From Actinomycetota bacterium (GTDB lineage Bacteria; Actinomycetota; Thermoleophilia; Miltoncostaeales; Miltoncostaeaceae), in assembly GCA_016870155.1 (NCBI GenBank), contig VGCE01000005.1:1-64000 (forward strand): 64,000 nt of DNA, read 5' to 3'. Below the pieces are notes generated by a model. That model worked only from the letters and a program-made list of their open reading frames with translations. It did not search any database and was not told the origin of the DNA. Shown here piece after piece: positions 55,301 to 59,256 of this stretch. Within the stretch, counting starts at the first letter, position 1, and each line of letters opens with the position of its first letter. Position numbers and translations under genes: made by a program.

Positions 55301-55933
55301 ATGAGGATCTTCCTGGGGGTAACCGGGGCGAGCGGCGCCCGATACGGGAGCCGGGCCCTCACCGCGCTCAGCGCGGGGGGCCACCACGTTGGCCTGTGCA
55401 TCTCCGATGCCGGCGCGCGCGTGATCAGCCACGAGATCCTCGGCGAGGGGCCGCGGCCGGCCTCATACGATGACGTGCGCGCCCGCTTCGTCGATGCCTT
55501 CGCGCAGGCGCCCGGCGCGGTGGACCTGCTCGACCCCGGCGACATCGCCTGCTCGTTCGCCTCGGGATCCTCCGGCGCCCGCGCGGCGCTGGTGGCCCCC
55601 TGCTCCAGCTCTACGCTCGGGCGCATCGCCCACGGCACCGGCGACAACCTCATCCACCGCGTGGCCGAGGTGATGCTCAAGGAGCGCGGCCAGCTCGTGC
55701 TGGTGCCCCGCGAGACCCCCCTGTCGCTCATCCAGCTGCGCAACATGGTGTCGGTCACCGAGGCCGGGGGCGTGATCCTCCCCGCCTCGCCGGGCCTCTA
55801 CGCGGACCCGGACACCATCGATGACCTCATTGACTTCGTGGTGGGCAAGGCACTCGACGTGCTGCGCATCAACCACTCGCTCTTCACCCGCTGGGGGGAG
55901 CCGCGCATCGCGGCCACCGGGGACGACGCATGA
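55301..55933 (+). CDS. ubiX: UbiX-family flavin prenyltransferase
   Basis: A 210-residue enzyme that prenylates FMN to make the cofactor for UbiD. Characteristic parts: GVTGASGARYG flavin loop, APCSSSTLGRIAHGTGDNLIHRVAEVMLKE (in parts) and VLVPRETPLSLIQLRNM, which contains the substrate-phosphate Arg. The Arg/Glu positions fit UbiX rather than a dihydrofolate-type flavoprotein. Together with ubiD it completes the decarboxylation step of menaquinone synthesis. Its stop overlaps the next ATG by 4 bases. Confidence 0.93.
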   Translation: MRIFLGVTGASGARYGSRALTALSAGGHHVGLCISDAGARVISHEILGEGPRPASYDDVRARFVDAFAQAPGAVDLLDPGDIACSFASGSSGARAALVAPCSSSTLGRIAHGTGDNLIHRVAEVMLKERGQLVLVPRETPLSLIQLRNMVSVTEAGGVILPASPGLYADPDTIDDLIDFVVGKALDVLRINHSLFTRWGEPRIAATGDDA

Positions 55934-56901
55934 GCACCGCGCCCCCCGTCTACGCGTTCGTGGAGCCCCTCATGCCCTGGCTCGCCCAGTGCGAGGAGAT
56001 GCTGACCCACTACGCCGGTGGCCACGTGCGTGCGGTGAGCGACCCGGCCATGGACACCCTCGCAGCCGGCGGCAAGCGCGTGCGTCCGATGCTGGTGTTC
56101 TGCGCCAGCGCGGGAGATGACGATAACCGCCCGCCCCTGGTCACCGCCGCCGCCGCCGTGGAACTGGTGCACATGGCAACGCTGGTGCACGACGACCTCA
56201 TCGACGGCGCCACCACCCGGCGCGGCCGGCCCACGGTGGCGCGCGCGCACGGCGCGGGGGCCGCCATCAACGTGGGCGACTTCCTGTTCGCGCGCGCCTT
56301 CGCCGAGCTCACGCGCGTCGGCTCGCCGGCCGCGGTCAGCGCCCTGGCCGATGCCTCGCTCGAGCTGGCGCTCGGCGAGATGGACCAGCAGCGGGCCGCC
56401 GGCGACCTGGGCCTCACGGTGGATGCCTACATATCGCGCTGCCGCCGCAAGACCGGGGCGCTGTTCTCGGTGGCCTGCCGCCTGGGCACCATGCTGTCGG
56501 GGGGCTCCGAGGAGGCCCAACTGCGCCTGGCCTCGTTCGGCACACGCGTGGGAGTGGCCTTCCAGATCCTCGACGACGTCCTCGACCTCTCAGGATCACC
56601 TGCGGAGACCGGCAAGCGCCGCGGCACGGACATTCTCAGCGGCACCGTCACCCTCCCGCAGATCCTCGCCATCGCCGAGGAGCCCGCGCTCGGCAATGAG
56701 ATCGGCCGGGTGGCCGCCGGCGGCGCGGGGCTGGACGCCCTGTGCGACCGCCTGGCGCGCCACCCGGGAACCGCGGCGGCCAGGCAGCGGGCGCTCGACG
56801 AGGTCGCGCTGGCAGGCGAGGTGCTGGACGGCGACATCGGGGGGGCCGACGCCAGCGCGCTTCGCACGATCGCCACGGGCATGGTGGAGCGCTTCGCATG
56901 A
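55930..56901 (+). CDS. polyprenyl diphosphate synthase
   Basis: A 323-residue trans-prenyltransferase. The first Asp-rich motif is LVHDDLIDG (about 93-99) and the second QILDDVLD (about 216-223); GGKRVRPML and KTGALFSVA are also in place. The likely product is the menaquinone side chain (heptaprenyl, octaprenyl or longer). The residues before the first motif (HMATLV) are small enough to allow a long product, but chain length cannot be fixed by eye. It overlaps both neighbours by 4 bases. Confidence 0.9.
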   Translation: MSTAPPVYAFVEPLMPWLAQCEEMLTHYAGGHVRAVSDPAMDTLAAGGKRVRPMLVFCASAGDDDNRPPLVTAAAAVELVHMATLVHDDLIDGATTRRGRPTVARAHGAGAAINVGDFLFARAFAELTRVGSPAAVSALADASLELALGEMDQQRAAGDLGLTVDAYISRCRRKTGALFSVACRLGTMLSGGSEEAQLRLASFGTRVGVAFQILDDVLDLSGSPAETGKRRGTDILSGTVTLPQILAIAEEPALGNEIGRVAAGGAGLDALCDRLARHPGTAAARQRALDEVALAGEVLDGDIGGADASALRTIATGMVERFA

Positions 56902-57359
56902 CGCGCGCCGAGGTCATCGCGCTGCTCGGTTCCCGCGACCCCCTCGCAGTCGCGGCGGGATTGCCCGTGCCCGCCGAGGTGGGCTGGTTGCGCGGCAATG
57001 CCCGGGGCGAGGGGATCGAGGTGGTGCACTACGGCGCGGGGACCACCGATGCCGAGGTGGCCGACCGCCTGCTGGACATCGCAACGCGCGCCGGCGACGT
57101 GCGCGCGGTGCTGCTCGTGCCCGGCGGCGACACCGCCGAGACGCCCGGCTCGTGGGGCAACGAGGACCTCCTGGTGACGGCCGTGGCGCGTCGCGTGCTG
57201 CCGGGCGTGCCGATCCGCCCCGACTGGGTCGCCCTCGGCGAGCCCGCCTGCCAGGTGGCCGTGTCATTCGGCGCCGACGAATGGGTGATCCCCGACGGCG
57301 TGGACGCCGACCCCGACCACCTGGCCGAGGCCGTGGGCGCCCGGGCGGTGGCGCGATGA
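56898..57359 (+). CDS. MqnC/MqnE-like fragment without radical-SAM cysteines
   Basis: A 153-residue protein. The C-terminal part (about 80-140) reads like the end of MqnC/MqnE/CofH: NEDLLVTAVARRVLPGVPIRPDWVALGEPACQVAVSFGADEW (seen in parts). The start, AEVIALLGSRDPLAVA, resembles the N-terminal helix of the same family. The whole core with the CxxxCxxC cluster motif is absent. Overlap by 4 bases with both neighbours and a conserved reading frame argue for a functional protein, perhaps a subunit or chaperone for MqnC or MqnE, but nothing is proved. I do not know a named family. Confidence 0.55.
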   Translation: MTRAEVIALLGSRDPLAVAAGLPVPAEVGWLRGNARGEGIEVVHYGAGTTDAEVADRLLDIATRAGDVRAVLLVPGGDTAETPGSWGNEDLLVTAVARRVLPGVPIRPDWVALGEPACQVAVSFGADEWVIPDGVDADPDHLAEAVGARAVAR

Positions 57360-58168
57360 GCGACCTGCGCGTGGGGCGCATCAGCGCCCTCAACATGTTC
57401 CCGGTGTACCACCACCTGGATGAGGCCGCGCTGCCCGGCGTCACATTCACCGATGGCCTGCCGGCGCTTCTCAACGCCGGCGTCATCGACGGCACGCTCG
57501 ACGTCTCGGCGATGTCCAGCATCGCGTACGCGCGCCACGCCCACGACCTGCGCCTGCTGCCGGTGGGCTGTATCGCGTGCGAGGGCGCTGTCGATTCGAT
57601 CAGGCTGCTGTCGCCGGTGCCGCTGCATGAGGTGCGCCGGGTCGCCGTCACGCCGCACAGCGCCAGCAGCGTCACACTGCTGCGGGTGCTGGTGGGACCC
57701 GATATGCGGTTCCGGGTAATGGCATCCGACCTCGAGGCGCCCGCCGCCCTCGCCGCCGGCGAGGCCGTGCTGCTCATCGCCGACGCCGCGCTCCTGGCCC
57801 ACCGCGGTGGCATCGCCCCGTACTCACTCGACCTGGGCGAGCTCTGGCAGCAGCGCACCGGCCTGCCGATGGTGTTCGCCGTGTGGGCGGCCCGCGAGGA
57901 CACGGCCGTCACGCGGCCGGCGGCGCTCGACGCGCTCTGCGATGCCATCACCGCAGGCACGGGGGCGTTCGCCGCCGACCCCGATGGCATGGCGCGCGCC
58001 GCCGCGCAGCGCTTCCCCTTCGACGAGGCCTATATCCGCGGGTACCTGTCGCGGCTTCGCTACGCATTCGGTGACGCCGAGCGGGCGGGCCTCGAGGCAT
58101 TCCTCGACATGGCCCGCGCGGCCGGCGAGCTGCGCGAGATGCCCGCCCTGCGGGCGGTGGCCGCATGA
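57356..58168 (+). CDS. mqnA: chorismate dehydratase
   Basis: A 270-residue enzyme of the futalosine menaquinone pathway that converts chorismate to 3-enolpyruvylbenzoate. The fold is a periplasmic-binding-protein-like two-lobe type. Marks of the family are VGRISALNMFPVYHHL at the start, DVSAMSSIAYARHA with the substrate-binding Ser pair, and LLIADAALL. It overlaps the preceding gene and mqnC by 4 bases. Confidence 0.9.
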   Translation: MSDLRVGRISALNMFPVYHHLDEAALPGVTFTDGLPALLNAGVIDGTLDVSAMSSIAYARHAHDLRLLPVGCIACEGAVDSIRLLSPVPLHEVRRVAVTPHSASSVTLLRVLVGPDMRFRVMASDLEAPAALAAGEAVLLIADAALLAHRGGIAPYSLDLGELWQQRTGLPMVFAVWAAREDTAVTRPAALDALCDAITAGTGAFAADPDGMARAAAQRFPFDEAYIRGYLSRLRYAFGDAERAGLEAFLDMARAAGELREMPALRAVAA

Positions 58169-59256
58169 GCACCGTCGCTCCCGCACGGCACCTCGACGTG
58201 ATCGAGCGGCTCGATGCCGGCGAGCGGCTGGACGACGACGGCGCCCGCGCCCTCATGGCGTCCCGCGACGTCGTAGCGGTCGCCGCGGCCGCCCAGCGCG
58301 CGCGTGACCGCGTGACCGACCCCGACGAGGTCACGTTCGTCATCGACCGCAACGTCAACTACACGAACTTCTGCGTCACCGACTGCGACTTCTGCGCCTT
58401 CTACCGCCACCCGCGCGACCCCGGGGGGTACGTGCTGAGCAAGCCGGTGATCTTCCGCAAGATCGAGGAGACCCTCGACCTCGGGGGCACGGCGCTGCTC
58501 ATGCAGGGCGGCCACCACCCCAACCTGCGCATGGAGTGGTACGAGGACCTCTTCAGCGACATCAAGCGGCGGTACCCGATTCACCTGCACGCGCTGTCGC
58601 CCAGCGAGGTGCTGCACATCGCGCTCTACTCGAACCTCGACGTGGGCGAGGTGCTCGACCGGCTCATCGACGCGGGGCTCGACTCCCTCCCGGGCGGCGG
58701 CGCGGAGATCCTCGTGGACAGCGTGCGCGACATCATCGCACCGCGCAAGACCACCACGGCCGAGTGGCTGGGGGTCATGCGCGAGGCGCACCGGCGCGGG
58801 CTCCAAACCAGCGCCACGATGATGTACGGCACGGTCGACACCGTGGACGACCGCATCGAGCACCTGCGCGTGCTCCGCGAGATGCAGGACGAGACCGGCG
58901 GCTTCACCGCCTTCGCCTGCTGGTCGTATCAGCCGGGCGGCTGCTCGGCACGCGGCGACGACCACCAGCACTCAACGGCCGCCGACTACCTCATCATTAA
59001 CGCCGTCGCGCGCCTCTACCTCGACAACATCCCCCACATGCAGTCGTCGTGGGTCACCCAGGGCCTGCGCATCGGCATGCTGGCGCTGGAAGCCGGCTGC
59101 GACGACATGGGCTCGATCATGATCGAGGAGAACGTCGTGCGCGCCGCCGGAACGGCCTTCACGCTCGACACCACGCGCATGGTGGAGGCCATCGAGGCCA
59201 CGGGCCGCCGCGCGGTGCAGCGCGACACCCTGTACCGGGTCGTGCGCCGCTACTGA
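58165..59256 (+). CDS. mqnC: cyclic dehypoxanthinyl futalosine synthase
   Basis: A 363-residue radical SAM enzyme of menaquinone synthesis. The cluster cysteines are Cys70, Cys74 and Cys77 in NYTNFCVTDCDFCAFY, characteristic of MqnC rather than MqnE. The TIM barrel includes MQGGHHPNL and the family end with EENVVRAAG. It closes the dehypoxanthine futalosine to the cyclic form. MqnB/MqnE and MqnD are not in the window. Its stop codon merges with the left end of the REP-like palindrome. Confidence 0.93.
   Translation: MSTVAPARHLDVIERLDAGERLDDDGARALMASRDVVAVAAAAQRARDRVTDPDEVTFVIDRNVNYTNFCVTDCDFCAFYRHPRDPGGYVLSKPVIFRKIEETLDLGGTALLMQGGHHPNLRMEWYEDLFSDIKRRYPIHLHALSPSEVLHIALYSNLDVGEVLDRLIDAGLDSLPGGGAEILVDSVRDIIAPRKTTTAEWLGVMREAHRRGLQTSATMMYGTVDTVDDRIEHLRVLREMQDETGGFTAFACWSYQPGGCSARGDDHQHSTAADYLIINAVARLYLDNIPHMQSSWVTQGLRIGMLALEAGCDDMGSIMIEENVVRAAGTAFTLDTTRMVEAIEATGRRAVQRDTLYRVVRRY

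Follow-up and report, generated by a model that had tools for sequence, protein, structure and literature searches.

The radical SAM enzyme MqnE (aminofutalosine synthase, TIGR03700), for which crystal structures from Pedobacter heparinus are available (PDB 6xi9 and 6xig), is a protein of about 370 residues, with the cluster and SAM site in the Cys loop and barrel strands 2–4. MqnC and CofH (TIGR03699 and TIGR03551; CofH_C, PF19288) belong to the same radical SAM barrel family. We have analyzed a window of 64,000 nucleotides, the whole stretch from 1 to 64,000 of contig VGCE01000005.1, from a member of the Miltoncostaeaceae, a family of actinobacteria in the class Thermoleophilia that occurs mostly in freshwater and sediment. 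Directly before mqnA and mqnC, the window encodes a short protein, here called X. X shares with MqnE the predicted N-terminal helices and C-terminal half-barrel fold, the operon position before mqnA and mqnC, and sequence similarity across strands 5–8. However, it lacks the Cys loop, strands 2–4, most of the conserved residues thought to face the barrel, and part of the C-terminal region, and X proteins are only 153 to about 190 residues long. MqnC and CofH are less similar to X than MqnE is. X also shares with pseudoenzymes generally the loss of the catalytic motif, a conserved predicted fold, selection, and a coexisting full-length homolog. Pseudoenzymes generally lose a few residues, whereas X has lost half a barrel together with the entire cofactor site. 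The features of the locus are as follows.

55301–55933, forward strand: ubiX-like flavin prenyltransferase, upstream in the same gene run as X.
55930–56901, forward strand: HepT-like polyprenyl diphosphate synthase, motifs intact; its stop overlaps the start of X.
56898–57359, forward strand: X (pseudo-MqnE), 153 residues, a half-barrel relative of MqnE with no Cys motif.
56898–56993, forward strand: N-terminal part of X, helices and first strand; structural match to the N-terminal helices of MqnE and the strand before its Cys loop.
57015–57293, forward strand: C-terminal half of X, corresponding to MqnE barrel strands 5–8 (YG...PGSWGNEDL...RPDW..LG..ACQVAV.FGADEW.IP).
57356–58168, forward strand: mqnA (PF02621); its start overlaps the stop of X.
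58165–59256, forward strand: mqnC, a complete radical SAM enzyme, above the TIGR03699 cut-off, with the motif CVTDCDFC.

The X frame opens with ATG at 56898 and closes with the stop codon at 57357–57359. An ATGA overlap is found at both ends, upstream with the stop of the HepT gene and downstream with the start of mqnA at 57356. The original prediction had read X as a cysteine-less relative of the radical SAM menaquinone enzymes next to a complete mqnC, and indeed the mqnC product scores 447.9 bits, above the cut-off of 428.1. It had further counted an isoprenoid-synthase-like protein as a second catalytically stripped paralog in the cluster. This proved wrong, since the HepT-like protein retains both of its catalytic motifs, DDLID and DDVLD, and matches PF00348 with 205 bits, and no second PF00348 protein is present in the window.

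Taken alone, X from the window matches the NCBIfam models of the CofH/MqnE families weakly, with E values of 0.003–0.1 (best, 0.0032). Neither this sequence nor the X family has a Pfam match, and none was obtained to the Radical_SAM domain, PF04055. Among 21 members of the X family, 19 match TIGR00423, with a best E of 1.7e-13, and 16 match the MqnE model, TIGR03700, with a best E of 6.7e-13. The TIGR03700 scores, 48.3 bits for a relative from genus g2 and 11.5 bits for X of the window, are both under the cut-off of 434.55. Matches of X to the MqnC and CofH models are weaker and lie in its C-terminal half. Alignment of the X family with sister-family MqnE by hhalign gave E = 1.1e-13, with a probability of 98.1% and 40% identity over 113 columns. 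When the X profile was compared with the PDB, the best match was crystal MqnE, 6xi9, with E = 1.7e-9. We regard the derivation of X from MqnE as nearly beyond doubt.

The stretch lost from X runs from NxxxTNxCxxxCxxC through strand 4, and X also lacks the HPxNT loop that follows strand 6. The CxxxCxxC cluster motif is absent, and the sole near-invariant cysteine is C118. Several of the residues that all MqnE share on the kept half remain (G46, R98, W110, and G125 of X), and most others are changed; from their position at strand ends in the alignment, the changed residues would face the barrel. Residues that are invariant in X and peculiar to it are W86, P102, R107, W129, P132, and D138. In most genera X has about 182 residues, approximately 30 more than in the window, and the extra helix, EAHRAAHAAGRPSEA, matches EVHKTAHRAGLPTNA of MqnE. 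The helix before strand 5 is gone in the window's genus, where X has 153 residues. Thus, X has shrunk stepwise within the Miltoncostaeaceae. It is virtually certain that X has no radical SAM activity, and its sequence makes aminofutalosine synthesis by X implausible, as there is no cluster site.

The AlphaFold models of X, with pLDDT of 93.8 for the window protein and 93.3 for a relative of 182 residues, were built on alignments of the same family, so that the support from the fold and the sequence result share a common basis. The N-terminal part of the window protein is assigned helices at residues 3–12 and 15–19 and a strand at 27–32. Foldseek ranks MqnE at the top for both models, with TM 0.63 and E = 4e-9 for the 182-residue relative and E = 6.8e-4 for the window protein. 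With VIA, 152 of 153 residues of the window protein align to crystal MqnE (Z 13.9, 2.3 Å), as do all 182 of the longer relative (Z 16.8, 2.6 Å). The aligned span is MqnE residues 33–367, with the central strands absent, while unrelated barrels give Z below 10. From this structural span, the strand at 27–32 probably corresponds to strand 1 of MqnE, although the sequence aligner placed it elsewhere. X is therefore predicted to have a compact fold of N-terminal helices, one strand, and the C-terminal half-barrel. Both ends of X having been likened to a radical SAM enzyme and its middle called missing, the family profiles, hhalign, and the structural alignment agree on both points.

In the sister families, mqnE stands directly before mqnA and mqnC. 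The gene order in sister family f2 is UbiE–HepT–MqnE–MqnA–MqnC, and that in the Miltoncostaeaceae is UbiE–HepT–X–MqnA–MqnC, so X takes the place of mqnE; the gene immediately before HepT in the window is ubiX rather than ubiE. The X profile scores up to 81.6 bits with the operon MqnE of sister families, compared to 44–54 bits with the Miltoncostaeaceae's own MqnE. Of the diagnostic columns, 4 favor sister MqnE, 2 favor own-family MqnE, and 11 favor neither. Trees built on 114 shared columns do not name the parent MqnE (AU p = 0.39 for X with own-family MqnE, and 0.11–0.38 for the groupings with sister MqnE), so that an origin in place is argued from synteny and profile scores. On this evidence, it is very probable that the operon mqnE was converted to X at its original site. 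The original prediction had X evolving from the enzyme beside it. A stripped MqnE relative is what we find, but descent from the adjacent MqnC does not stand, because X occupies the mqnE slot and its best likeness is to the operon MqnE of sister families.

The same genomes carry, at another site, a full MqnE with CxxxCxxC. In the window's genome it lies on another contig and is the one further, weak match to X; in a genome assembled as a single contig (G041), it lies 1.2 Mb from mqnA. This unlinked MqnE is 73–95% conserved inside the Miltoncostaeaceae and has a long stem (2.08) in the tree. A search of plasmids for its donor gave nothing above 41%. At the locus L032:1501–2607 (G000:C1:22958–24061), it scores 399.3 bits, under the TIGR03700 cut-off of 434.55. 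NRHIN has become N[GA][YH]LN, a motif of the GGEHP type has become GGMTK, and the cluster motif is intact as CVVGCGFC or CVVGCGLC. Judging from this motif, the unlinked MqnE is probably active.

X is present in 38 of the 42 Miltoncostaeaceae genomes sampled in the class search. Among 41 related genomes, 18 of the 20 searched from the window's genus (the window's own being counted) carry X free of stops, as do members of five other genera of the family. Four genomes have no X. In two of these (G002 and G004), mqnA is missing as well, which marks the assemblies as incomplete at this locus. In the other two (G093 and G132, loci L106 and L101), both of genus g22, HepT is joined directly to mqnA and X is cleanly absent. 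This genus has lost X yet keeps mqnA, mqnC, and MqnE, and thus X is not strictly needed. Conservation in relatives, proposed as a check on gene decay, therefore counts against decay, X being intact across the family apart from its clean loss in one genus; a lack of structural similarity, the other proposed ground for refutation, is contradicted by the predicted fold. No short X-like proteins were seen outside the Miltoncostaeaceae in the class and phylum samples. Two short frames, in G282 and G244, are located at contig ends or close to them and were read as truncated MqnE.

Nei–Gojobori dN/dS values for X are 0.11–0.38 in 11 pairs, showing that X is under purifying selection, somewhat relaxed. 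For comparison, the values are 0.10–0.21 for mqnA, 0.06–0.13 for HepT, and 0.05–0.14 for MqnE, and selection acts on X with about half the strength that it has on mqnA. The homology and dN/dS rule out a spurious open reading frame in GC-rich DNA. If a pseudoenzyme is a protein whose catalytic site is lost, which is under selection, and which has a full homolog in the same genome, X is one, the activity of the homolog being judged from its motif. X is neither a decaying gene, nor a radical SAM enzyme, nor, by a search of six genomes, a split enzyme.

We suggest that X is a pseudoenzyme derived from the operon mqnE and most likely a noncatalytic partner of the early futalosine enzymes, a reading to which we assign a probability of about 0.5. 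In this proposal, the ancestor of the Miltoncostaeaceae would have carried UbiE–HepT–MqnE–MqnA–MqnC. Aminofutalosine synthesis would have shifted onto the second, unlinked, diverged MqnE, and the operon copy would have lost the part from the Cys loop to strand 4, which holds the 4Fe-4S and SAM site. The N-terminal helices, one strand, and the C-terminal half-barrel may have been retained as a compact fold. X would then generate no radical but work by binding, as a small partner of MqnE in the first place and then of MqnC or MqnA. Its binding surface, inherited from MqnE, may steady the enzyme or hold the MqnA product near its user. MqnE is the first candidate because X descends from it and could keep a surface for self-association; no description of an MqnE dimer was found in the open literature. 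The predicted fold, the selection, the operon coupling, and the lost cofactor site together make a partner role in the pathway about an even chance. The narrower proposal, in which the clusterless half-barrel serves the diverged full-length MqnE (or MqnC) as a functional partner or an allosteric subunit, is more tentative, and we consider it somewhat doubtful.

X might instead act outside a pathway complex, as a small binding protein or a new enzyme, if two half-barrels come together as a complete barrel whose new pocket binds, e.g., the MqnA product or aminofutalosine. The invariant residues that MqnE lacks (W86, P102, R107, W129, and D138) speak for this reading, but X has lost many of the residues that are invariant in the corresponding half of MqnE. 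The designed half-barrel TIM proteins 3tdm and 3og3 appear among the weaker structural matches, although numerous unrelated barrels match at least as well, and we regard this alternative as unlikely. It is less probable still that X is a regulator or decoy that binds MqnE or MqnC and lowers its activity, or that senses an intermediate. The anatomy of X would be the same for a regulator as for an accessory subunit, and the tight translational coupling with HepT and mqnA is in keeping with either role.

That coupling, with its overlapping junctions, also suits a decaying remnant of mqnE, kept only as a frame that couples the translation of HepT and mqnA, as do the loss of X from one genus and its shortening from about 182 to 153 residues in the window's genus. 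However, dN/dS is well under 1 in every pair tested, the aligned copies have neither stops nor frameshifts, motifs are conserved across genera, and the predicted fold is confident. Furthermore, a spacer needs no conserved protein, and genus g22 couples HepT to mqnA directly. Decay is thus very improbable as an explanation. X could also be taken for the C-terminal half of a split enzyme whose cluster-binding half is encoded elsewhere, since it is a clean C-terminal half with N-terminal helices. A search of six genomes of the family with the missing half found only complete MqnE, MqnC, and the regions of CofH and CofG, all in long frames, and a split enzyme is hardly credible.

If X is a partner, the menaquinone pathway of the Miltoncostaeaceae runs on an enzyme and its stripped relative, and a partnership with MqnE would open a natural way to study how the enzymes of the early futalosine steps are organized. 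As the family's complete MqnE has itself diverged to an unusual degree, it would make sense to test the two together. The locus also provides a traceable case of an enzyme becoming a pseudoenzyme within an operon, with the sister family showing the state before, the Miltoncostaeaceae the state after, and one genus a clean loss. In a narrow search of the open literature, we found no description of X or of a radical SAM half-barrel of its kind.

One genome (G006; L014 and L099) has an intact X on one contig, and a second contig breaks off within a further X, about 80% identical, of which the last 49 residues are present; this is either a second copy or a strain mixture in the assembly. The futalosine pathway otherwise looks present, with mqnA, mqnC, MqnE, and a second PF02621 gene fitting mqnD. 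No MqnB (futalosine hydrolase) scored above the TIGR03664 cut-off, which raises the question of which enzyme hydrolyzes aminofutalosine. The nearest TIGR03664 match is a nucleosidase-like open reading frame (L154, G000:C3:133403–133822), which lies in an apparent hopanoid cluster, next to a putative radical SAM protein of the HpnH type and a putative reductase of the HpnA type.
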